Virus record (IMG/VR): IMGVR_UViG_3300033153_003750 | Location: 1-35,680 of that record | Length of the DNA stretch: 35,680 nucleotides | Strand: one strand, 5' to 3' | Source of the DNA: a virus | Shown here: positions 1-23,701 of the stretch, one piece after another | Layout: each line of letters opens with the position of its first letter | Position numbering within the stretch: position 1 is the stretch's first letter | Notes under the pieces: model-generated | Databases searched by the model: none | Told to the model about the DNA's origin: nothing | Seen by the model: only the letters and a program-made list of their open reading frames with translations | Made by a program: the position numbers and the translations under genes

Positions 1-1599
1 CAAAACGCACTAAACAACATTAATACATCAACAGGTATCATATTGCCTCATGGTGTGAAAATGGAAAGTGAGTACCCTGCTAACAACGTTGCATTTAAGG
101 AGGCTATTGATGACTTTGATACAGCGATTGCAAGGGCTTTGCTTGTGCCAAATTTGCTCGGAGTATCGCCTCAGGGTAATGTCGGTTCGTATTCCCAATC
201 AACAAATCAGCTTGAAGCTTTCTTGTGGACATTGGAAGCTGATGCAATACGACTTGAAGAAACAATCAACGAGCAATTGTTTAGACAGTTGGCAAAGGTA
301 AACTTTGGTGATGATGGATACCCTCGCTTTAAATTTAAACCTGCATCAGGAACTAAGAAGCTTGAACTTATAACTTCATGGAAAGAATTAGTTAGTGCCG
401 GTGCTGCTAAACATACTGAAAGTGATGAAGAACATTTACGTGAGCTACTTGATTTTCCAGAAGCAGGTGAGGAGATTAAACCTAATGTTGCAGATGTCGG
501 TAGAATTGGAAACGAAGATAATAATCCAGATGGTGAAAGTAATAACGATGATAATAGTGATAGCAACAATAACGATGATGGTGATGTAGAAGATAAAGAT
601 CCATTAGACGATGAAGAAGATATGGCTGCTAAAGAAAAAGCCGAAAAGGAAAAGCAAGCCAAAACTGATTCAACTATTATTGGTAAAGGTCTGGTTACTG
701 TTGGTGCATTTAGTAAAGCATTAAAACGTGTTGACTTTGCAGCTATTGCTAAAAAGACTGATACTACTACAGAAGAATTTACTGCTCGTACTGCAAGCGT
801 GATGGATAGCATTATTGATGATCTAATTACTAAAGCTAAAAGTGGTGGTGATTTAAGTGAAGACATTACTAATAACATTAAATTATTAAAAGTTAACCCT
901 AAACTAAAACGTAAACTTAATACTGCACAAACTGCAATGCTTCGTTCAGGTTTTAAAGAAGGTACAAGTGAAGCAAGTAGTGAAGTTAACAAAGCAAAGA
1001 ACTCAGACTTTTCACGCAACATTGATATGGAACGTATTAATTTAATTGCTGATGATTACTTTAAGATAACTGCATTTAAGATAACAGGTAACTTAACAAC
1101 TGATGCTGTTAGCATTATTGAACAGGCTATCTTGAATGGTGCGCGTTATGATAAAACGTGGAATCAAGTTGAGACAGATATATACCAGACCTTTGCAACT
1201 AAAGGTATGATTTCACCTGAACAGGCAGTGGAAGCTTTAGGTGAGGCATTAGGTGTTGATAATCCTGATGCACGTTTACGAACTATTACTAGAACTGGAA
1301 CGTTTGATGCTATTAACACTGCACGACAAGAATACTTTAATGATCCTTCGTTAGGTGGTTTTGTTGTTGGTTTTGAATACAGTGCTATATTAGATGATAG
1401 AACTACACAAATTTGTAGACATTTAGATGATGATGATCGTGGAAACCATAGTAAGAAGTGGTATGAAAGCAATGCAAGCTTCACTCCACCTAATCATTAT
1501 AATTGTCGTTCACTATTAATACCTGTTACAACGGCTGATGAAGAAACGTTTGTTGAAGGTGGTGAACCTGAAATGCAGCCTCAAGAAGGTTTTCGTTAA
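1..1599 (+). CDS. Portal (Mu gp29/DUF935-like) fused to MuF-type head morphogenesis protein, 5' partial
   Basis: The frame is open from base 1, so the N-terminus lies outside the window; 532 residues are visible. Residues 1-120 resemble the C-terminal part of Mu gp29-type portals, including the stretch IARALLVPNLLGVSPQGN and a following helix with LEETINEQLFRQL. Residues about 160-205 form a very acidic Asp/Glu/Asn linker. The C-terminal part ends in a MuF (Mu gp30/SPP1 gp7) signature: LDDRTTQICRH (C472, H474) followed by PPNHYNCRSL (H499, C502). In Mu these two functions are separate genes; here one uninterrupted frame carries both. The portal is the DNA entry channel of the capsid and MuF proteins are minor head proteins needed for assembly. 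Family assignment is strong; the fusion could only be doubted if a sequencing error joined two frames. Confidence 0.85.
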   Translation, partial: QNALNNINTSTGIILPHGVKMESEYPANNVAFKEAIDDFDTAIARALLVPNLLGVSPQGNVGSYSQSTNQLEAFLWTLEADAIRLEETINEQLFRQLAKVNFGDDGYPRFKFKPASGTKKLELITSWKELVSAGAAKHTESDEEHLRELLDFPEAGEEIKPNVADVGRIGNEDNNPDGESNNDDNSDSNNNDDGDVEDKDPLDDEEDMAAKEKAEKEKQAKTDSTIIGKGLVTVGAFSKALKRVDFAAIAKKTDTTTEEFTARTASVMDSIIDDLITKAKSGGDLSEDITNNIKLLKVNPKLKRKLNTAQTAMLRSGFKEGTSEASSEVNKAKNSDFSRNIDMERINLIADDYFKITAFKITGNLTTDAVSIIEQAILNGARYDKTWNQVETDIYQTFATKGMISPEQAVEALGEALGVDNPDARLRTITRTGTFDAINTARQEYFNDPSLGGFVVGFEYSAILDDRTTQICRHLDDDDRGNHSKKWYESNASFTPPNHYNCRSLLIPVTTADEETFVEGGEPEMQPQEGFR

Positions 1600-1808
1600 T
1601 GCTAACTGATAAGCAACAGAGCCAGTTAAGGTACGAATTAAAACGTAGGTTTATGCTTAACGTTGAACAAGGTCTTGATGATGCTATTAATCAAGTTATG
1701 TTTAAAGGAATTAATTTAGGAGATATGGTTACAATAGAACTAAGATTGCAATCACACGTACTAGGTAAAACTAAAGAAGGTCAAATACAATTGGAGCAAG
1801 TTAAGTGA
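1599..1808 (+). CDS. Small hypothetical protein in head operon
   Basis: 69 residues, not recognised. The start ATG shares a base with the stop of the portal/MuF gene (TAATG), and the end overlaps the next GTG start, so it is translationally coupled on both sides. It is a soluble, mixed-charge protein with no cysteine, signal or membrane segment. An N-terminal amphipathic helix (QQSQLRYELKRRFMLNVEQ) is likely. It may be a small head accessory protein, but nothing visible proves this. Confidence 0.75.
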   Translation: MLTDKQQSQLRYELKRRFMLNVEQGLDDAINQVMFKGINLGDMVTIELRLQSHVLGKTKEGQIQLEQVK

Positions 1809-2329
1809 TTATTATATGTCCATCAGTACCACATACAGGACATCACTTTATGAAGTCTCGTATATTTAAAAGCTATGATGTTAGATCGCCTTTAGATGAT
1901 ACGTTAAGTAGCAAGTGTGCTCTTATGGGACATTTTGATTATAAGTTTTCATTAGCATGGGGATACTGGATGCAACAAGAAAACGTTCAAATTATAATCC
2001 CATTAAGGCATCCCGCTAGATGTTTAGCTTCATTTAATAAAAGAAACACTATTAACTCAACATACGAAAGTTATTGCAGACAATGGGATACGCTTATAAG
2101 TATGACTCGCAAATTAAGTAACATTATGTATCTGCATTTAGATGATAAAGTAATTAGAGATAAACAAGCAAAAGCTATTCTTGAAGTAATAGGGTTGAGC
2201 CATGATGTTGATTGGTCTGTTGCAACTGAAACAGGTTCAAAGCATGGTACACATGAAATAGAGATAAGCGATACACTGTTAGAGAATGTTCCAGAAAAAT
2301 TTATTAACTTTTACAATAGCAAAATGTGA
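1805..2329 (+). CDS. Sulfotransferase-like P-loop protein
   Basis: 174 residues, starting with GTG at 1805 that overlaps the previous stop. The N-terminus IIICPSVPHTGHHFMK resembles the 5'-phosphosulfate loop of sulfotransferases (consensus near PxxGTTW), and IIIPLRHPARCLASFNKR around residue 60 resembles the 3'-phosphate motif with its Arg, Pro and Ser. Enzymes of this family move a sulfuryl group from PAPS to a sugar hydroxyl or Tyr. The protein is short for the family (usually 250 or more) and the catalytic residue is not certain. It lies directly before two radical SAM genes and inside the capsid operon, which suggests virion or glycan modification. It could instead be another P-loop nucleotide-binding protein; the call rests on two short motifs. 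Confidence 0.5.
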   Translation: MIIICPSVPHTGHHFMKSRIFKSYDVRSPLDDTLSSKCALMGHFDYKFSLAWGYWMQQENVQIIIPLRHPARCLASFNKRNTINSTYESYCRQWDTLISMTRKLSNIMYLHLDDKVIRDKQAKAILEVIGLSHDVDWSVATETGSKHGTHEIEISDTLLENVPEKFINFYNSKM

Positions 2330-2338
2330 GGCAGTTAT

Positions 2339-3022
2339 ATGAATACTATTCATCAAATTGAAATAACTTCACGTTGTAACTTACGATGTAAGTATTGCGT
2401 TCACCCGCACATGCAACGTACTAAAGAAGATATGAATTTAGAAACGTTTGAACGTTCACTGTATTGGGTAAAACGTTTTGTTAGTTATGGTACACAAGGT
2501 ACAGAACTTAACTTAGCTGGTATCGGTGAAAGTACTATGCACCCTGACTTCAACTTATACGTTGCAATGGCGCGTGAAGCATTAGGTAATAAACGAAACT
2601 TAATACTTGCTACCAATGGCGTTTCATTAACTGATGAACATGTTGAAACATTAAAACGTTATAACGTGTTTACATGGGTTAGTTTGCATCGTCCTGAAAA
2701 GGCTGGCATTGCTGTTAACATGTTGAAGAAAGCTGGTGTGTTGAAAGGTGTTAGTGCTGATCCAGCTATCGCTTCTGTTGATTGGGCTGGTCAAGTTGAG
2801 TGGGAAGTTACTGCTGCTAGTGGTGTTTGCACTTGGATAAGAGATAACATGTTTTTTATATATGCTGATGGTCGCGTTACTAAGTGTTGTTTTGATGGTG
2901 AAGGAAAAGGTGTTGTTGGTCATGTTAACGATTTAAACTTATGGACTGTTCACAATACACCTTATGAACTTTGTGATAAATGTCATTTAGATTCAAACAT
3001 AGCCAAGGTAGCTATAGCATGA
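2339..3022 (+). CDS. Radical SAM protein with SPASM-like C-terminus (copy 1)
   Basis: 227 residues. C13-x3-C17-x2-C20 in EITSRCNLRCKYC is the radical SAM [4Fe-4S] motif; LNLAGIGEST matches the glycine-rich GGE strand and ILATNG the next strand. The C-terminal part has C164, a DGRVTKCCFD segment (C183, C184) and CDKC (C212, C215), the pattern of a shortened SPASM or twitch domain holding an auxiliary cluster. SPASM enzymes usually modify peptides or activate proteins, and some act on sugars; the substrate here is unknown. The start ATG follows a GAGG-type ribosome site (gtgaggcagttatatg). The next gene, which starts inside its stop codon, is a paralogue. Fold assignment is confident; reaction is not. 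Confidence 0.9.
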   Translation: MNTIHQIEITSRCNLRCKYCVHPHMQRTKEDMNLETFERSLYWVKRFVSYGTQGTELNLAGIGESTMHPDFNLYVAMAREALGNKRNLILATNGVSLTDEHVETLKRYNVFTWVSLHRPEKAGIAVNMLKKAGVLKGVSADPAIASVDWAGQVEWEVTAASGVCTWIRDNMFFIYADGRVTKCCFDGEGKGVVGHVNDLNLWTVHNTPYELCDKCHLDSNIAKVAIA

Positions 3023-3714
3023 GCGTTCAAGTAACAAGAATACATCAAATTGAAATTACAAATGAATGTAATCTTGCTTGTGAATATTGTCCACACTCTA
3101 AAATGCAACGACCTAAACAACACATGAACTTTGAAACGTTTAAGCAAGCTATGGCTCATGTTGATTACTATGATAAAAAAGGTACACAACCTGAACTAAG
3201 TTTAACGGGTATGGGCGAAAGCTTTTTAAACCCACTGTTTATTGATATGTGTCATATAGCTAGAGAGACTTATCATAAACGTATATTACTTTCAACAAAT
3301 GGTATTAAGGTCAGTGAAGAAGAAATTAAAGAACTTGCTGATTTAAATATTGAATTATATGTATCACTACATAGACCTGAACGAGCAAAGAAAACAATCG
3401 ACTTAGCTATTAAGCATGGTATTTTAAAAACAGTTAACGCATGTTTCGTAACATCATCACTTAACTGGGCTGGTCAAGTTGAGTGGGAAGAAACTGCACC
3501 CGTTGTAGATTGTATTTATTTAAAAGAAGGCTATGCTACTGTATTAGCAAATGGTGATATAACTACATGTTGTTTCGACTATGAGGGTTATCACATATCA
3601 GGCAATGTTAATAATAAAGTTGGAAATTTATTAATAAATCAGGGTAAACTGTGCAAAGACTGTTCACAAGTCATACCCGATAACATTAATGATGAACAAG
3701 TTGCGATTGCATAA
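3019..3714 (+). CDS. Radical SAM protein with SPASM-like C-terminus (copy 2)
   Basis: 231 residues from the ATG at 3019, chosen because it overlaps the preceding stop as ATGA; the frame is open further upstream to a TTG at 2980 but that lies inside the paralogue. C17-x3-C21-x2-C24 (CNLACEYC) binds the catalytic cluster; LTGMGESF is the GGE-like strand; DITTCCFDYEG and a final CKDC correspond to the auxiliary-cluster region of copy 1. Both copies share IHQIEIT, YVSLHRPE or WVSLHRPE, the distinctive WAGQVEWE segment, and a terminal VAIA. They clearly arose by duplication and have since diverged. They may form a heterodimer or act in sequence on one substrate. It ends 12 bases before the protease gene. 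Confidence 0.9.
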   Translation: MSVQVTRIHQIEITNECNLACEYCPHSKMQRPKQHMNFETFKQAMAHVDYYDKKGTQPELSLTGMGESFLNPLFIDMCHIARETYHKRILLSTNGIKVSEEEIKELADLNIELYVSLHRPERAKKTIDLAIKHGILKTVNACFVTSSLNWAGQVEWEETAPVVDCIYLKEGYATVLANGDITTCCFDYEGYHISGNVNNKVGNLLINQGKLCKDCSQVIPDNINDEQVAIA

Positions 3715-3726
3715 GAGGTAATTACT

Positions 3727-4746
3727 ATGGAACTTACTGCTGAGATATTTGCCGTTGGACAATGGAACGGTATGAATTTTGAAAAAGAAGATTTGAATTT
3801 AATGTCTGCTGCATTTAATTCATTAAAGGAAGTTCACAAAGTACCTTTGAAATTTGGTCATAATGATGAACAACCTTTTACTGATGGCCAACCTGCAATT
3901 GGATGGGTTGGTGAAGTATGGGTTGAAGGAACTAAGCTTATGGCTAAGTTCATTGATATTCCAGAAGTCGTATATACTGCATTGCAGAATAAATTATATA
4001 AACATGTATCCGTTGAATTGGATATGGGAGTTGAACATAAAGGAAATTATTATACATGGGTGTTGTCTGGTGTTGCGTTGCTCGGTGCGGATATACCGGC
4101 TGTTAATACGCTTGCTGATTTGACAAGCTTTATGAGTAAAGATGATGAACTATCCTTTAAAAAACGTGTTGTGTTTACTGCAACATATATTGAAACTAAA
4201 AAAGAGGACAAAGTTATGTCTGATAGTGAAGAAGTAATTGCACTAAAAGCTCAACTAGCCGCTTCACGTGTCGAAACTGAAAAGTTAGCTACAACAAATA
4301 TGTCTCTTGAAAAAGATCGTATTGAAAATAAAGCTAAGTTTGCAGCACATGAAAAAGCTGAATCACATCGTAAAGATGTTGAATCACGAAGCTTATTAGC
4401 TGCTAAGTTAGATGCAATGGTGCAGGATAAAAAGATTGCTCCGTTTACTCGTGAAGATTTTCTTAACGAATACGACAATGCAAAAGATAAATCAATGGTT
4501 GTATTTTCAGTTGATAAACTTGAAAAAACTATTGATGCTAATCCTGCTTATTTTGGTGCTGAACAAGCACGTAACAAAGCTGATAAGCTTAAAAACGAAG
4601 ATGGTAAAACAGCAAGTGAAATTGTTGTTGAACGTACTCGTGAATACATGGCTAAGAATGGTGAGAAGAACTTTGCAGTTGCTAAGACCGCAATCCTTCA
4701 AGCTGATTTAGAATTAGCTAATAGCTACACTAAGATGGAGGGTTAA
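3727..4746 (+). CDS. Mu gpI-like prohead protease with C-terminal scaffold
   Basis: 339 residues. Residues 1-140 match the Mu gpI protease type: LKFGHND with H45 and KHVSVEL with S95 are the likely catalytic His and Ser, in the family order and spacing. Residues 164-339 are charged and helical (ALKAQLAASRVETEKL and onward), typical of scaffold. The protease cleaves scaffold and itself during head maturation. An in-frame ATG at 4216 (residue 164) is preceded by AGAGGA, so the scaffold half can be made alone, as with gpI/gpZ in Mu. The gene starts at an ATG after AAGAGGTAATTACT. Confidence 0.85.
   Translation: MELTAEIFAVGQWNGMNFEKEDLNLMSAAFNSLKEVHKVPLKFGHNDEQPFTDGQPAIGWVGEVWVEGTKLMAKFIDIPEVVYTALQNKLYKHVSVELDMGVEHKGNYYTWVLSGVALLGADIPAVNTLADLTSFMSKDDELSFKKRVVFTATYIETKKEDKVMSDSEEVIALKAQLAASRVETEKLATTNMSLEKDRIENKAKFAAHEKAESHRKDVESRSLLAAKLDAMVQDKKIAPFTREDFLNEYDNAKDKSMVVFSVDKLEKTIDANPAYFGAEQARNKADKLKNEDGKTASEIVVERTREYMAKNGEKNFAVAKTAILQADLELANSYTKMEG
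4216..4746 (+). CDS. Nested scaffold protein (internal in-frame start of protease gene)
   Basis: 176 residues beginning MSDSEEVIALKAQLAASRVE. The ATG at 4216 lies 7 bases after the AGAGGA at 4203-4208, an excellent ribosome site inside a coding region. The product would be the helical scaffold half only, as in Mu gene Z nested in gene I and lambda Nu3 nested in C. Family precedent plus the ribosome site support it; expression itself cannot be seen. Confidence 0.6.
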   Translation: MSDSEEVIALKAQLAASRVETEKLATTNMSLEKDRIENKAKFAAHEKAESHRKDVESRSLLAAKLDAMVQDKKIAPFTREDFLNEYDNAKDKSMVVFSVDKLEKTIDANPAYFGAEQARNKADKLKNEDGKTASEIVVERTREYMAKNGEKNFAVAKTAILQADLELANSYTKMEG

Positions 4747-4749
4747 GCT

Positions 4750-5097
4750 ATGAGTTATTTAGAAAGCATTCCCGTTATTGCTGGTGCTGACTTAACAGCA
4801 AAGCAATATAAATGTGTTGCTGTTGCTGGTACTATTGCGGCTGATGGAACTGCAATTGGATTACTACAAAACAAGCCTAATACTGGTCGTGATGCTACGG
4901 TTGGTTATGCAGGTCGTTCACGTTTTGTTGCTTCTGATACGGTTGCGGCTGGTGCGTTGTTAACACCAACAACAAATGGTTTCATGGTCACGGTTGGTTC
5001 TGGTGATCCATGTTTTGGACGCGCACTAAGCGCAGTTGCATCAGGTGGTATTGGTGAAGGTATTTTTAACTTTGCTAATGGCTTACTAATCGCTTAA
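4750..5097 (+). CDS. Head decoration/capsid cement protein
   Basis: 115 residues, small, rich in Gly, Ala and Thr, with no charged helices: the profile of lambda gpD/DUF2190-like capsid cement proteins. The segment LTAKQYKCVAVAG and later GDPCFGRALSAVASGGIGEG fit that family. It lies between protease/scaffold and major capsid, the standard place for decoration proteins. The start follows GGAGGG at 4737-4742. It probably binds the capsid surface after expansion to stabilise it. The fold family is inferred from composition and position. Confidence 0.75.
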   Translation: MSYLESIPVIAGADLTAKQYKCVAVAGTIAADGTAIGLLQNKPNTGRDATVGYAGRSRFVASDTVAAGALLTPTTNGFMVTVGSGDPCFGRALSAVASGGIGEGIFNFANGLLIA

Positions 5098-5111: not shown

Positions 5112-6068
5112 ATGGGTGCTACATCACAAGACTTACATATTGACACTGCTCTTTCAGAAGTAGCGTTAGGGTATCGACCAGAAGGCTTTATTGCCGATAT
5201 GATCATGCCTATTGTAAATGTCTCTAAACAATCTGATCACTACGTTATTTGGAGTCGTGCTGATCGTTTACGAAAGCATGATACTAAACGTGCTCCTGCT
5301 ACAGAAGCAAAACGTATCGAAGAAAATGTAAGTTCAGAAACGTACTACGCAAACAACTACGCATTGAAATCATCAATTCCAATTGAAGACTTTAAAAATG
5401 CTGATCCAATTTACCTTGATAATTTAAACAATGGTAAAACTGAATTAGTTATGGATGGTCTGTTAATTGATTGGGAAGTGCGTGTTGCTAACCAAGTAAC
5501 TTCTGGTTCAAACGTTGGTTCATACAGTGCTGTTGCATCTGCATGGAACGATGGTGCGGCTGGTTCAGATCCAATTGGTGATATTAATGTTATGTTAGAT
5601 AACGTTCAATACTCAACTGGTAAACGTCCTAACCGCTTAACGTTTGGTTTAAAAGCTTGGCAAGTATTCCGTCGTCATTCCGATGTTCGTAACATTATCT
5701 TCGGTAATAATAACGGTGGTGGTTATGCATCTATCGCTCAAGTCAAAGATTTATTTGAAATCGAAGATTTGCAAGTTGGTGGTGCTTTCCAGAATACGGC
5801 TGGTGAAGGTTTAACTGAAAACTTATCTGCAATTTGGGATGATCATATCTTAGCTCACGTAACACCAATGAGTGCAAGTAAAGATCGTCCTTCGTTTGCT
5901 TATTCGTTCCGTTGGAATCAAGCTGGTTTACCTAACTTTCAAGTTGAGCGTCACCCTTACGATACTAAACGTAAGGCGCAAGATTTGGAAATTGGTTACT
6001 ACCAAGATGAAAAAGTTACTGGAGCAGAGTATGGCTTCTTGTTAACTAACGTAACAAGTTCTTCTTAA
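5112..6068 (+). CDS. Major capsid protein
   Basis: 318 residues after a strong AGGAG site. The opening (LSEVALGYRPEGFIADMIMP), the DHYVIWSRADRLR strand and the central segment NRLTFGLKAWQVFRRH are characteristic of major capsid proteins of Mu-like and marine siphoviruses with the HK97 fold. Length fits (typically 300-350). There is no long N-terminal delta domain, consistent with a separate scaffold. A hairpin terminator follows directly, which would give abundant short mRNA for the capsid genes upstream. Confidence 0.9.
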   Translation: MGATSQDLHIDTALSEVALGYRPEGFIADMIMPIVNVSKQSDHYVIWSRADRLRKHDTKRAPATEAKRIEENVSSETYYANNYALKSSIPIEDFKNADPIYLDNLNNGKTELVMDGLLIDWEVRVANQVTSGSNVGSYSAVASAWNDGAAGSDPIGDINVMLDNVQYSTGKRPNRLTFGLKAWQVFRRHSDVRNIIFGNNNGGGYASIAQVKDLFEIEDLQVGGAFQNTAGEGLTENLSAIWDDHILAHVTPMSASKDRPSFAYSFRWNQAGLPNFQVERHPYDTKRKAQDLEIGYYQDEKVTGAEYGFLLTNVTSSS

Positions 6069-6143: not shown

Positions 6144-6314
6144 ATGGCACTGGCAAAACATGATTTAGATAAACCTGTTGAAGAAACTGTTGAAGAAGAA
6201 GTTGTTTTAGAAACTGAAACTGAAACTGAAACTGAAACTGAAACTGAAACTGAAACTGAAACTGTTGAAGAAGACGTTGCTTTAGAAAATAAAACTGAAA
6301 CTGAAACTAAGTAA
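6144..6314 (+). CDS. Small acidic protein with (Glu-Thr)9 repeat
   Basis: 56 residues: MALAKHDLDKPVEETVEEEV, then nine Glu-Thr dipeptides at residues 23-40 and an acidic tail ending in more ET pairs. The ATG follows CTGGAGAATTGTT, a good ribosome site, and the stop is followed at once by the AAGGAG of the next gene. The dipeptide run is encoded by an exact tandem hexanucleotide. The protein is strongly negative and probably unfolded. Function unknown; its place after the capsid gene suggests a head accessory or linker role. Confidence 0.75.
   Translation: MALAKHDLDKPVEETVEEEVVLETETETETETETETETETVEEDVALENKTETETK
6210..6263 (+). repeat. Tandem repeat (GAAACT)x9
   Basis: Nine perfect copies of a 6-base unit in frame with the 6144-6314 gene, encoding Glu-Thr each time. 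Further imperfect copies lie at 6295-6308. Because the unit is a multiple of three, slippage would change length without shifting frame. Confidence 0.97.
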
Positions 6315-6325
6315 GGAGAACTATC

Positions 6326-6496
6326 ATGGCACTTACACCAAGTCACTCTGACGAAAACCGAAGTAAAGTTCTTAACTCAATTAAAAAGATTGGAAAAGAA
6401 GGCACTGCACAAGCTGCTGATAAGTTGAAAGAACAATTTAACATCGGTGATAAGCAGAACATTGCTACACCTAATAACAAAATTATTAAAGCTTAA
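6326..6496 (+). CDS. Small basic hypothetical protein
   Basis: 56 residues, starting MALTPSHSDENRSKVLNSIK after the ribosome site AAGGAGAACTATC. Helical and Lys-rich, with no cysteine, signal or membrane segment. It sits 11 bases after the acidic Glu-Thr protein, has the same length and shares the MAL opening. The opposite charge of the two neighbours could allow pairing, but this is speculation. Not recognised. Confidence 0.7.
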   Translation: MALTPSHSDENRSKVLNSIKKIGKEGTAQAADKLKEQFNIGDKQNIATPNNKIIKA

Positions 6497-6521: not shown

Positions 6522-9500
6522 ATGTTTATTGTCATACACTGTATGGGATTACCGTTTAATGGTGAAACGATTAAAACAAAATCGTTAGGTGGAAGTGAAA
6601 CTGCTGCTTACTATGTAGCGAAAGAACTTGCTGCCAAAGGTAACAAAGTTACTATGTTCACTAACAGCCAAGAAGAAGGTGAATGGGATGGAGTTAAATA
6701 TGTCTTTGCAGGTAACTCAACTGAGCAACAACCTTTAGGAGATCGCTTTCATTTCTACGCTGAAAACACTCCGCATGATGTACTGATAATTCAGCGTTAT
6801 CCTGCTGCGTTTCAATATAACTGGGCTGCTAAGATGAAGTTCTGGTGGGTGCATGACTTAGCACAAGTCCGTTCACAACCTCAAATAGCTTCTAACCTTT
6901 GGAACATTGATGGAATCCTTACGGTGTCTGACATGCATAAACAACAGTACGTTGAAGTGTATGGTTTAAATCCTGATATTATTTACCCAATTCAAAACGG
7001 TGTTGATTTAAGTTTGTTTGAAAAAGACTTAACAAAAGAAGATGCTGTTTACTTTACGTTCCCTGAAAATGAATTAGATAGTAAAGAAAAAACTAAGCTA
7101 CTTTATTCGTCACGCCCTGAACGTGGTCTGGCTCACTTAGTTAAGCCTGATGGAATTATGGAAAAGCTTGCTGCAATTGATAGCAAGTATCATTTATATG
7201 TTTGCGCTTATGAGAATACTACTGCACAAACTGAACAATATTACTTAGCACTTAAACAACGTTGTGAAGAATTACCGAACGTAACTTTACTTGGTTCATT
7301 AACAAAACAAGAACTTGCTGATGTTATGCGGCAATGTGATGCAATGGTTTACCCAACACCAGATAACAAACAGCCTAACTTTGAAGAAGTAAGTTGCATC
7401 ACTGCAATGGAATGTATGGCTGCTGGTTTACCGTTCATTAGTTCAAAGCGTGGTGCATTGCCTGAGACATGTAAGGACTCTGGAAGCCTTTTAATTGACA
7501 CTGATGATAATGGCTTTCCAGATGTTGATGCTTTCGTTGCAGCCATTACAGGCATTCCGTTTGGTCGTATGGATGGAATTAAGGATATACAAATGGCTCA
7601 ATTAGCGGCTGCTAAGAAGTATAGCTGGAACGTGGCTGCTGAAATGCTGTTAGGACACATTGAGACAGCCAAAGCTAAGAACACCTCAAACGGCTCTAAA
7701 ATGCGTTACATGCTACAAATGAGCGACATTTACGCACTGAAAGCATTCGTAGAAGCTGGTAATGTTGATACGGCTGATGCAATTCAAGCTCGCGTTGTTG
7801 AAGAATTGGATGAATGTTATCGGTTTGCCTTTGATAATAAGTGGGCTGAACACTATGCCAGCTATTATGATTATGAAAAAGATAGAGGTGTTAATTATGG
7901 TGCGGAAAATTTGGATAACAATCCTCGTTATGAGCATGTCTCCAGTATTATTAGTAACTTGCCTGCTGGTAGTAGCGTTATTGATTATGGTTGCGCTCAC
8001 GGTCACTATACGATCAATCTGGCAAAGCGATTCCCCGATAAGCTTTTTACAGGTATTGACATTACTCGAACAAACATTGAAAAAGCGAGCGAGTGGTGTG
8101 AGCAAGAAGGTATCACCAATGCAAAATTCATACATGGATCAATCCCACAAGGAAACAGTGCAGGCATCATCAAAGTACATGCAGAGTCAGGTGCAGAAAT
8201 CGGAGCAATACCATTAGCCGATTGTGTTATTGCTGCCGAAGTAATTGAGCATGTTGGTGATGCTAGTTACTATGTTGATACGTTAGCTAAGTATTTAAAA
8301 GATGATAAGTCTATTATGATACTTACAACTCCATTCGGTGCATGGGAAGCAATTGGTTATGAAGAACATCATCCGTGGCGAGCACATGTACACCATTTTG
8401 ACCGTGAAGATTTAGCTGACTTATGGGGACATTTTCCTAAGTTTAATGTTGCTGTAACTCCATCAGGTCATTCACTTTGGGGTTCAGGTTTAGGCAGTTA
8501 CATTACAACGTTTGAAAACCCTGCTGGTTTAGTTTCACGTAAAGTTAATTATGATCGTAAGTTTGAAAACATGGTTGGCAGACAGACTTTATCAATGTGC
8601 ATGGTTGTTAAGGATGCAGAAGATACTTTAAAGCGTTCACTTGATTCATTAAGTATTCAGTCTGGTAAGTCTGTTCATTATGTACCTGATGAAATTGTTA
8701 TTGCTCTTGATGAAACAACTACTGATAGAACTTATGGTGTTATTAACAAGTGGATTGAAGATCGTAAAGGTAATTTTCCAATTGTAAAAGTAATTAACAT
8801 ACCTTCCCCTATGGAAATAGGCTTTGACGAAGCTCGTAACTTATCTATTAATCAAGCTGTTGGTGATTGGATTTTATGGATGGACTCAGACGAAGTAATG
8901 ATACACCCTGAAAACATTTTTAAGTATTTACATAATAACCAGTTTAACGGTTATGCAGTAAGACAGCATCACTTCGCTATTGAGCCATTAGGTGTTTTGA
9001 AAACTGATCTACCTTGTCGCTTATTTCGTAATCATAAAGGTGTTAAGTTTTTTGGTGTTGTACATGAGCATCCTGAATTAGAAATTAATGAAGGTGTTGG
9101 TGCTGTTCAACTATTACCTGATATTGAAATTGCACATCATGGCTATACAACAGAACGTATTCGTCGTGGTCGTTTTGATCGTAACATTGCATTGTTAGTT
9201 CGTGACCGTAAAAAGTATCCTGAACGTAAGTTAGGGAAGTTCTTATGGTTACGTGACTTATCGCAAATGTGTAAATATGAATTAGAAGTTAATGGTGGTC
9301 GTGTAACTGCTGATATGCGTGAACGTGCCAACGAAGGTATTAAGATTTGGGAAGAACTGCTTGCTGCTAACGAGTTAAGAATGTTAGTTGATGGTATAGA
9401 CTTTTATAGTCTGCTAACTAAAGTTATTGGTGGTGGTTTTGAAATGGGTTTTACGTTGGATACATCAAAAGAAAACGGTGGCATCCACATGGATCAGGCA

Positions 9501-9602
9501 AAGCCTGTTATTGCGAACTTCGCTAATAAACAACATGCAGAGGATTTACTTCAAGCATTATTTAACGAAAAGGTGAAAAGTTATGACTCAAAATACTTTT
9601 GA
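6522..9602 (+). CDS. Trifunctional glycosyltransferase (GT4-like) - methyltransferase - glycosyltransferase (GT2-like)
   Basis: 1026 residues from the ATG at 6522, chosen over an upstream in-frame start at 6447 because ACTGGAGAAAACATT lies directly before it. Residues 1-390 are a GT-B enzyme of the GT4 type: KSLGGSETAAYYVAKELA near the N-terminus and an E289-x7-E297 motif (FEEVSCITAMECMAAGLPFI). Residues about 450-680 are a class I SAM methyltransferase with motif I VIDYGCAHGHY (486-496) and a later CVIAAEVIEHVGD. Residues about 690-1000 are a GT-A enzyme of the GT2 type with LSMCMVVKDAEDTLKRSLDS and a DxD-type site D788-S-D790-E. No membrane segment is seen, so it acts in the cytoplasm. It probably builds and methylates a short glycan; acceptor unknown. 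It overlaps the next gene by 20 bases. Confidence 0.9.
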   Translation: MFIVIHCMGLPFNGETIKTKSLGGSETAAYYVAKELAAKGNKVTMFTNSQEEGEWDGVKYVFAGNSTEQQPLGDRFHFYAENTPHDVLIIQRYPAAFQYNWAAKMKFWWVHDLAQVRSQPQIASNLWNIDGILTVSDMHKQQYVEVYGLNPDIIYPIQNGVDLSLFEKDLTKEDAVYFTFPENELDSKEKTKLLYSSRPERGLAHLVKPDGIMEKLAAIDSKYHLYVCAYENTTAQTEQYYLALKQRCEELPNVTLLGSLTKQELADVMRQCDAMVYPTPDNKQPNFEEVSCITAMECMAAGLPFISSKRGALPETCKDSGSLLIDTDDNGFPDVDAFVAAITGIPFGRMDGIKDIQMAQLAAAKKYSWNVAAEMLLGHIETAKAKNTSNGSKMRYMLQMSDIYALKAFVEAGNVDTADAIQARVVEELDECYRFAFDNKWAEHYASYYDYEKDRGVNYGAENLDNNPRYEHVSSIISNLPAGSSVIDYGCAHGHYTINLAKRFPDKLFTGIDITRTNIEKASEWCEQEGITNAKFIHGSIPQGNSAGIIKVHAESGAEIGAIPLADCVIAAEVIEHVGDASYYVDTLAKYLKDDKSIMILTTPFGAWEAIGYEEHHPWRAHVHHFDREDLADLWGHFPKFNVAVTPSGHSLWGSGLGSYITTFENPAGLVSRKVNYDRKFENMVGRQTLSMCMVVKDAEDTLKRSLDSLSIQSGKSVHYVPDEIVIALDETTTDRTYGVINKWIEDRKGNFPIVKVINIPSPMEIGFDEARNLSINQAVGDWILWMDSDEVMIHPENIFKYLHNNQFNGYAVRQHHFAIEPLGVLKTDLPCRLFRNHKGVKFFGVVHEHPELEINEGVGAVQLLPDIEIAHHGYTTERIRRGRFDRNIALLVRDRKKYPERKLGKFLWLRDLSQMCKYELEVNGGRVTADMRERANEGIKIWEELLAANELRMLVDGIDFYSLLTKVIGGGFEMGFTLDTSKENGGIHMDQAKPVIANFANKQHAEDLLQALFNEKVKSYDSKYF

Positions 9603-10119
9603 AGAAAAGTTGCTTGGAGATTTCAAACAAGCAATAAACGGTAACATGGCAGATGGTTTAAGTGTTAAAGGTAAATGGAAGTTTACCATTACACGCGCAG
9701 ATGGTTCTATTGAAGAACATGTATCTGAAAACATTGTTACTAAAGATGGTTTAAATGCAATTGCTGAACTTATGTTAGGTGATGCAACTGGTGCGAATAG
9801 CGGATTTCAATATATCGCTATTGGTACAGTTACAACACAAGGTTCATTAGGTTCACTTCAATCAGGGCTTGGTGAAGTTAGTCGTAAGATTGGTTCTATT
9901 ATCGCAAGCTCAGGTGAAGTTGCGATACTAGTTGCTACGTGGGCTGGTGATACTGATACCTTAACAGGCATTGCTCTTGGTACTGCTGGTATCATTAACC
10001 ATGCTGATTCAGGTTCAGGTGTATTTGGTAATCATGTTAACAGTGTTGATGCTACTTTAAATGCTTCTGATTTCCTTAAGGTACAAATGGAAATACAAAT
10101 CGGTTCGCATAACTTGTAA
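9583..10119 (+). CDS. Putative phage structural protein (head fibre or tail accessory)
   Basis: 178 residues; ATG inside the end of the glycosyltransferase gene, after AAAGGTGAAAAGTT. The middle part (VTKDGLNAIAELMLGD, then YIAIGT, a Gly/Ser-rich stretch and a final QMEIQIGSHN) follows a pattern common in small beta-rich phage virion proteins. No enzyme motif, cysteine or membrane segment. Being translationally coupled to the glycosyltransferase it is a candidate substrate or partner. The exact role is not recognisable. Confidence 0.7.
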   Translation: MTQNTFEEKLLGDFKQAINGNMADGLSVKGKWKFTITRADGSIEEHVSENIVTKDGLNAIAELMLGDATGANSGFQYIAIGTVTTQGSLGSLQSGLGEVSRKIGSIIASSGEVAILVATWAGDTDTLTGIALGTAGIINHADSGSGVFGNHVNSVDATLNASDFLKVQMEIQIGSHNL

Positions 10120-22545: not shown

Positions 22546-23085
22546 TTAAAACTCATGCGTTACACCTAACCATACAGAAGACTTCTTATAGCTTGTGCTA
22601 CCTGTTTGAAAGTTGCTACGAGTATTATTCACATTATCATAAGTTGATTGGGTAATGTTATGTTCAGCGTCATAAACATAATAACGTAACGTTACCAACT
22701 TATAATCAATACCTATCATAAGAGCATTAACATTAGTTGAGTCCTGTATGTTGCCATAAGTAGGTACTGCTACGATTGCTGTATCAGGTAAACTTGAAAT
22801 ACCTGTATAAAGTTTTAAGCCTGTTAATGGCTTTGTTTGTAAGTATAAGCTTGCACCCATATCTTTATCAGCAACTAATAACTCTATACCAACATACCCA
22901 ACAGCCATTCCAAAGGCTGCAAACACTTCATGTTCTTTCGGTTGGTCAGTACATTCACCACATATTGTATTCGCATTATATAAACTGACATAAGCATTAA
23001 CTTCATTCGCCTGTGCCACTGATACGGCAATCATTAAAGACATGCCTAATGCAATGGACAGTATTACATTATTTAACGTTTTCAT
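22546..23085 (-). CDS. Secreted outer-membrane-type protein
   Basis: 179 residues from the ATG at 23085 (AAAGGAGAAAGTAAA directly before it; an in-frame ATG at 23112 has no such site). N-terminal signal peptide: MKTLNNVILSIALGMSLMIA then VSVAQA with likely cleavage before Asn27. The mature part is beta-rich (alternating hydrophobic strands such as VNALMIGIDYKLVTLRYYVY) and ends in VWLGVTHEF; a C-terminal Phe after alternating residues is the signal recognised by the BAM complex. A CGEC pair (C42, C45) is periplasmic or external. This would be a host-surface protein made by the phage, for example one blocking receptor or altering envelope. Exact role unknown. Confidence 0.75.
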   Translation of the reverse strand: MKTLNNVILSIALGMSLMIAVSVAQANEVNAYVSLYNANTICGECTDQPKEHEVFAAFGMAVGYVGIELLVADKDMGASLYLQTKPLTGLKLYTGISSLPDTAIVAVPTYGNIQDSTNVNALMIGIDYKLVTLRYYVYDAEHNITQSTYDNVNNTRSNFQTGSTSYKKSSVWLGVTHEF

Positions 23086-23098
23086 TTTACTTTCTCCT

Positions 23099-23701
23099 TT
23101 ATAGGTTTTCACCTAACCAAGTGACAACGATATATTTATCACCTTTTATAATTTCTTCACCACAATGTTCGTGTGTCCACGATGATGAAAACATTACTAC
23201 CTTACCTTTTTCCGGTTTAACAGAAATATTTTGATGTTTAAAAGTTGTTTCACCACCTTCTTCAACATCGTTTAAATAAAAAACACATGTAACATTTCTA
23301 TAGTACATAGCTGACTTAGCTGCGTCTGAGTGCCATGAATAAAAACCTCCTTTATTATATTTTATTATTGTATAACCTTCATCACTTTTGATTAATGGTT
23401 TAAATCCTAAACCAATTAATAATTTAATACACTTTTCAACAGCATTAAATAATAAGTTATCAATTTCTTTTACATTGCTTACGTTTAGTGTAATGCAATT
23501 ACCAATCAACATACTCTTTGATTTTATAACTTTATTATTGGGTTCACCATAATCTTTATTACCTGCACTACTTTTTATTTGTAAACCTTTATTATTATCA
23601 AATATACTTTTTATTAAATTACATTGTTTATCTGTTAATACATTTTTAATTTCAAATATAAGTGAACCTTCCTTTACCTCATTTATAATTAAGTTACTCA
23701 T
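23099..23701 (-). CDS. Prolyl-4-hydroxylase-like Fe(II)/2-oxoglutarate oxygenase
   Basis: 200 residues. H124-x-D126 in YSWHSDAA and H179, ten residues before K189 (in HCGEEIIKGDKY), are the Fe ligands and 2-oxoglutarate Lys of the P4H type; EEGGETTFK matches the GGET element between them. These enzymes hydroxylate proline or other side chains, or nucleic acid bases in some phages. N-terminal helix region is also P4H-like. The ATG overlaps the stop of the 55-residue gene upstream (ATGA) and follows AAGGAGAAAGAAAA. Substrate unknown. Confidence 0.85.
   Translation of the reverse strand: MSNLIINEVKEGSLIFEIKNVLTDKQCNLIKSIFDNNKGLQIKSSAGNKDYGEPNNKVIKSKSMLIGNCITLNVSNVKEIDNLLFNAVEKCIKLLIGLGFKPLIKSDEGYTIIKYNKGGFYSWHSDAAKSAMYYRNVTCVFYLNDVEEGGETTFKHQNISVKPEKGKVVMFSSSWTHEHCGEEIIKGDKYIVVTWLGENL

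Follow-up and report, generated by a model that had tools for sequence, protein, structure and literature searches.

Enzyme genes within the head operon

The window studied here, the whole of a 35.7-kb IMG/VR virus fragment, cuts a portal/MuF gene at its 5' end and continues through a set of head genes (Table 1). Three intact enzyme genes in the same orientation, encoding a sulfotransferase-fold protein and two radical SAM enzymes (RSAM1 and RSAM2), lie between the portal/MuF gene and the prohead protease gene, as an earlier note on this DNA had claimed; the intact reading frames and low dN/dS ratios bear it out. The same note described these genes as partly overlapping, which is true of RSAM1 and RSAM2 and of the GTG start of the sulfotransferase-like gene, which overlaps the stop of the 69-aa ORF, but not of the sulfotransferase-like gene and RSAM1, which are 9 bases apart. 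The start of RSAM2 is most likely the ATG at 3019, in a 4-base ATGA overlap with the RSAM1 stop, because relatives align from there; the listed ORF start at 2980 is probably too early. RSAM1 and RSAM2 are real genes under purifying selection, and their frames are not degenerate: against the nearest relative contig (G001, 53.6 kb), the dN/dS pairs are 0.19/0.99 for RSAM1 (ratio about 0.19) and 0.13/0.96 for RSAM2 (about 0.13), compared to 0.08/1.29 for the capsid gene and 0.22/1.46 for the glycosyltransferase fusion gene. This relative lacks the sulfotransferase gene and the 69-aa ORF, and its RSAM1 gene directly follows MuF.

Table 1. Genes of the head region in the window, with the matches on which their assignment rests.
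Feature	Position	Strand	Evidence
Portal fused to MuF-like head morphogenesis domain	1-1599	+	Pfam Portal_Mu 6.5e-21, Phage_Mu_F 5e-10; PHROG portal 3.5e-28; open at contig start
69-aa ORF	1599-1808	+	No Pfam or PHROG family matched
Predicted compact sulfotransferase-fold protein, 174 aa	1805-2329	+	HTGHH P-loop; LRHPARCLASFNKR 3'-phosphate-type motif; model and fold matches
Radical SAM/twitch enzyme 1 (RSAM1), 227 aa	2339-3022	+	Pfam Radical_SAM 7.4e-14; BtrN by profile and fold
Radical SAM/twitch enzyme 2 (RSAM2), 231 aa	3019-3714	+	Pfam Radical_SAM 5.1e-13; 42% identical to RSAM1; separate paralogue clade
Head maturation protease	3727-4746	+	PHROG 976, 7.9e-33
Head decoration/scaffold-type protein	4750-5097	+	PHROG 673, 1.1e-12
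Major capsid protein	5112-6068	+	PHROG 1005, 3.4e-65; C-terminus ...NVTSSS
GT4-SAM methyltransferase-GT2 fusion (GT-MT-GT)	6522-9602	+	Pfam domains; ORF opens at 6447
178-aa protein	9583-10119	+	PHROG tail fiber 1.4e-5; recurrent family F9 in corresponding place

Two tiny ORFs separate the capsid gene from that of the GT-MT-GT fusion, whose start is most likely the ATG at 6522 and not 6447, because a conserved MxIxxHxxGxPFNG start is found there. The nearest solved relatives of its GT2 domain in a PDB profile search are GmaR (4e-25), which transfers GlcNAc to flagellin (PMC9638930), and the peptide S-glycosyltransferase SunS (9e-21), and its DxD motif (D813 and D815) is invariant in 9/9 sequences. 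The phage GT2 domain differs from both in being fused behind GT4 and methyltransferase domains, and its protein acceptor is only predicted. In one relative (L025:6111-9341), the GT2 part does not align with its counterparts and seems to have been exchanged for unrelated sequence.

The interval between the capsid and GT-MT-GT genes contains a perfect GAAACT repeat of 9.2 copies (6210-6264), which gives Glu-Thr repeats in a small ORF (~6144-6314). We rejected a role for this repeat as a phase-variation switch upstream of the GT gene: it lies within the small ORF, the frame is kept, and no similar hexamer repeat was found at the corresponding place in relatives. Elsewhere in the window, all on the opposite strand, are a 2OG-Fe(II) oxygenase gene (23099-23701; PF13640, 7.4e-17), distant from the head genes, whose product may be a further modifying enzyme; a RadC-like JAB-domain protein gene in phage context (35152-35643; PF04002, 2.6e-45); and a gene for a 188-aa protein (22546-23112) without a Pfam match, which by eye has a signal-peptide-like start and an outer-membrane-barrel-like sequence. 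A phage-encoded surface protein would fit superinfection exclusion.

The radical SAM pair and the sulfotransferase-fold protein

RSAM1 and RSAM2 can be assigned by sequence to the radical SAM superfamily, and all seven of their cluster cysteines, those of CxxxCxxC and the auxiliary Cys 164, 183, 212 and 215, are invariant in 83/83 distinct relatives. The earlier description of these proteins as radical SAM/SPASM-like is thus right in its first half, which the Pfam matches and the CxxxCxxC motif confirm, but does not extend to a full SPASM domain, which has seven Cys and two auxiliary clusters: just four auxiliary Cys are conserved, and the Pfam SPASM matches (4.5e-4 for RSAM1 and 5e-3 for RSAM2) both miss the curated cut-off. 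The four auxiliary Cys fall in the region that aligns with the twitch domain of BtrN, and the C-terminal domain is therefore predicted to be twitch-like, with a putative single auxiliary cluster as in BtrN. The profile of the family matches BtrN at 8e-18 over positions 6-203, nearly its full length. BtrN is also the best Foldseek match (5e-12) of the RSAM1 model (pLDDT 96), and in VIA-align it comes first with a Z of 20.3 (2.9 A over 212 residues), followed by ChlB (Z 16.6), anSME (Z 16.2) and SkfB (Z 15.4), making it the clear nearest relative by profile and modelled fold. A role in 7-deazaguanine synthesis, raised by a weak PHROG match to QueE (1.2e-5), was rejected since BtrN is far closer.

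BtrN is a radical SAM/twitch 2-deoxy-scyllo-inosamine dehydrogenase that catalyzes the two-electron oxidation of this aminocyclitol and has four Cys ligands on its auxiliary cluster (PMC9012708). The phage enzymes resemble it in size, fold and cluster cysteines, but are only about 20% identical to it and are often encoded in a head operon as two anciently diverged paralogues. The NRGG segment of BtrN reads NWAGQ in the phage family, with Trp at the position of the NRGG Arg (Arg152, chain numbering) in 83/83 sequences, a figure biased by the inclusion of this Trp and the nearly invariant WAGQ in the search pattern. We take the Arg to have a role in substrate binding, and its replacement by Trp leads us to expect a substrate different from that of BtrN. 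Campylobacter phages such as CP20 and CPt10 also encode radical SAM proteins annotated as BtrN; these are only about 24% identical, come from genomes of about 175 kb, and are likened here on protein sequence.

The matches that rank after BtrN, namely ChlB, anSME and SkfB, bring in another explanation, in which both RSAMs act directly on a virion protein by side-chain oxidation, epimerisation or covalent cross-linking, in the manner of anSME or a peptide maturase, in parallel to and independently of glycosylation. Their genes adjoin capsid genes whose products they could act on, the most recurrent weak NCBIfam matches are to peptide, cofactor or enzyme maturases, and head cross-linking has a phage precedent in HK97. 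We nevertheless consider this explanation unlikely, since the clear nearest match by profile and fold is BtrN and not a peptide maturase, the NCBIfam matches fall far below their cut-offs and involve the core domain only, an RSAM of 227 aa has no room for a leader-binding domain, and the partner enzymes in the same slot are of glycan type.

The two copies do not stem from a recent local duplication, a possibility we rejected because the paralogues split into old clades. In one large group of the RSAM tree, all 18 'first' copies group together (support 100), as do the 'second' copies in a clade of their own (98). The two copies also occupy separate clades in the group of the window, and their order is swapped in two contigs (L033 and L035). 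The pair thus appears to be old and kept, which would fit two distinct or successive reactions.

The product of the gene at 1805 was not recognized by any sequence library searched, Pfam and PHROG among them, and the earlier suggestion that it is sulfotransferase-like is upheld at the level of predicted fold. Its model (pLDDT 85, pTM 0.84), built from seven sequences, has TPST1, TPST2 and SULT1C1 as top Foldseek matches (E 2e-4 to 7e-4), and in VIA-align 50/50 rows are sulfotransferases (Z 9.4-11.4; best 3.3 A over 165 residues). The protein is thus predicted to have a sulfotransferase fold. The 3'-phosphate motif RxPxxxxxSxxxR is present as RHPARCLASFNKR, its Arg and Pro being unchanged across seven relatives. 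The 5'-phosphosulfate loop reads PHTGHH in the window and HTGT or HSGT in relatives; its position fits the PKSGTT type, with His in the window protein where classical P-loops carry Lys/Arg. Compared to tyrosylprotein and other PAPS sulfotransferases, with which it has the fold, the P-loop position and the RxPxxxxxSxxxR-type motif in common, the phage protein is only 174 aa long, has His for Lys/Arg in the P-loop and lacks a sequence-level match. Relatives are encoded in the corresponding slot of L077 (46% identity) and L031 (26%), and L123, L127, L131 and L132 encode similar HTGT/HSGT proteins in the capsid-GT interval. The sulfotransferase is a sporadic member and not a fixed part of the cassette.

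Gene order and cargo across related contigs

When RSAM1 and the sulfotransferase were used as single sequences to scan viral contigs, no match was obtained, their patterns being too specific, and the IMG/VR scan for the RSAM family therefore used a profile from the alignment queries A1 and A2, which yielded 61 loci. Clustering of neighbour genes revealed a recurrent order of terminase, portal/MuF, RSAM, other enzymes in some cases, RSAM, protease, head protein, capsid and GT-MT-GT, and the order from portal/MuF to GT-MT-GT is conserved across divergent contigs. In 48/54 loci with a called RSAM gene, some near-duplicates included, such a gene is no more than 1.5 kb from a head gene or the GT fusion. 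The arrangement in the window is thus not a one-off, and homologues are not confined to sites far from head genes. Many contigs keep two RSAM copies; in others RSAM directly follows the GT fusion or lies between capsid and GT. The exceptions are L004/G002, with RSAM beside a polymerase gene, far from head genes, and capsid and GT elsewhere on the contig; L038/G017, with RSAM far from head genes; L041 and L042, with an RSAM locus without a head gene; and L005, which is also outside the pattern. RSAM contigs that extend beyond the capsid gene carry the GT gene, some only its start at the contig edge.

A scan for the GT fusion detected 212 relatives; the counts below are based on the 80 loci listed. 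Among these listed matches, capsid and GT are less than 1 kb apart in 61/66 loci holding both. This linkage bears on a further explanation, that the enzymes modify lipopolysaccharide, capsule or teichoic acid on the host surface during infection as moron-type functions, for example in superinfection exclusion, and are merely carried in the late operon. Phage glycosyltransferase, methyltransferase and sulfotransferase genes can act on host glycans, and the RSAM genes come and go. However, such close attachment of GT-MT-GT to the capsid gene over deep divergence is unlike mobile morons, the genes sit in the head operon, and the GT2 domain is nearest to protein and peptide glycosyltransferases; we think a host-surface role quite unlikely.

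Among the listed matches that contain portal, protease and GT genes, RSAM is present in 20/52 loci, ten of them with two copies, and missing from the other 32. Thirty contigs, nearly all from the GT scan and without RSAM near the GT gene, were searched whole; RSAM was found elsewhere in 2 and not at all in 28. We therefore rejected RSAM as an obligate partner of the GT; it is not needed for the GT-MT-GT core, since GT-MT-GT loci often occur without it. A 58-row GT tree, made with FastTree and rough in its branch detail, requires 11 changes in RSAM presence, at least 10 of these being forced by well-supported branches. GT-MT-GT is the core trait of these loci and the RSAMs are accessory.

The slot between portal and protease carries further modifying enzymes in relatives, including FkbM methyltransferases (3.6e-9 and 5e-11), Methyltransf_11 (1e-13) and Sulfotransfer_3 (1e-8 and 1e-9). 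Non-enzymatic and fibre-like genes are also present, and 75/151 genes in this slot are unassigned. Long, possibly fibre-like slot proteins are encoded at L033:3912-6383, L035:9390-11063 and L138:4362-6116; they are possible head fibres or glycan acceptors. Such mixed content, together with the at least 10 changes of RSAM presence on the GT tree, would be expected if there were no joint system and the RSAMs, sulfotransferase and methyltransferases were unrelated cargo in a tolerant slot. This is very unlikely in our judgement, as one set of enzyme classes (RSAM, methyltransferase and sulfotransferase) dominates the assigned cargo, RSAM pairs have been kept over long times, and RSAMs are also repeatedly found behind GT-MT-GT or in the capsid-GT interval, indicating that they track the GT and head genes and not a single site.

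In three isolated phages with homologous capsids, RDJL6, CRP-6 and RHph_Y60, a search out to about 7 kb from the capsid gene revealed no homologue of the RSAMs, the GT fusion, FkbM or the sulfotransferase. Among 50,697 isolated phage records no member of this lineage was found; tblastn detected there partial but no full-length GT-fusion relatives, remote relatives only of RSAM2, and none of RSAM1 or the sulfotransferase. The sole match in prokaryote genomes, L013 (MEWP01000162.1), is a 10.4-kb contig in a Zixibacteria MAG, apparently the same contig as L005, and offers a weak hint of the host.

A proposed model of capsid-linked glycosylation

A virion-modification system is the best-supported explanation of this neighbourhood, which is real, conserved and non-random and from which we infer the chemistry, the acceptor and the benefit. 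The joint system with the trifunctional glycosyltransferase that the earlier note proposed is well supported by genetics, because of the strong GT-MT-GT linkage and the further modifying enzymes in the same slot of relatives; its proposed membership has to be loosened, the sulfotransferase being sporadic and the RSAM pair accessory. More specifically, the region is probably a capsid-linked virion protein glycosylation module with modular glycan tailoring, a reading we hold with moderate confidence and in which substrate, order of steps, acceptor and benefit are all proposed from the genes. The GT2 domain would attach a sugar to a virion protein, the GT4 domain would add a further sugar, and the middle domain of the fusion would methylate the added sugar. 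RSAM1 and RSAM2 may use a 5'-deoxyadenosyl radical to oxidise a sugar carbon or remodel it in another way, an electron passing to the auxiliary cluster, and the two enzymes would be responsible for different or successive steps. Sulfation of the glycan or of a tyrosine may be the role of the sulfotransferase-fold protein, and in other family members FkbM or class I methyltransferases would act from the same slot. The likely benefit would be an altered particle surface (masking, stability or adsorption). It is possible, with chances that we put slightly short of even, that this two-enzyme radical SAM system in a phage head operon places radical-chemistry modifications on the virion, either keto, deoxy or epimerised sugars of an unusual kind or changes made directly to a protein, optionally combined with sulfation.

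The best acceptor candidates would be the conserved Ser/Thr C-terminus of the capsid protein, the head protein encoded at 4750-5097 and the product of 9583-10119. A capsid C-terminal [NTDG]S[STV]x ending occurs in 55/78 GT-lineage capsid proteins versus 0/11 GT-less relatives, an enrichment that is not independent evidence because one lineage is compared with just 11 outgroups, and the proposal of the capsid tail as acceptor is suggestive only. Genes of family F9, to which the 9583-10119 product belongs, often come immediately behind GT-MT-GT or the capsid gene, making this product a candidate virion acceptor or fibre.

The statement in the earlier note that such enzymes belong to no known head assembly pathway calls for caution, because phage capsid glycosylation is known. 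Mycobacteriophages encode glycosyltransferases, and carry glycans at the C-termini of capsid and tail-tube proteins that form a glycan shield (Freeman et al. 2023, as reported in PMC12619734 and PMC11256854). Phage-encoded glycosyltransferases are thus common to both systems, whereas the system described here differs in having a GT4-methyltransferase-GT2 fusion in a fixed position immediately after the capsid gene, in the radical SAM, sulfotransferase and FkbM genes within the head operon, and in being known from genes alone. A literature search that reached a minority of subscription papers yielded neither a description of such a tailoring set within a head operon nor a paper joining radical SAM, sulfotransferase or FkbM enzymes and phage genomes, and it gives weak support for novelty. 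Virion glycosylation is thus already known as a kind, and the composition and head-operon placement seen here appear to be a new variant.

If this model is correct, a widespread uncultured phage lineage would have capsid glycosylation as a core trait, with its glycosyltransferase hard-wired behind the capsid gene and its glycan diversified by oxygen-sensitive radical enzymes, sulfation and methylation. The dependence on radical SAM chemistry would suggest hosts that live with little oxygen. The gene arrangement would provide a searchable genetic signature for phage virion glycosylation, the capsid C-terminus a testable acceptor, and the 83 distinct sequences a large new radical SAM family with a likely role in carbohydrate modification.
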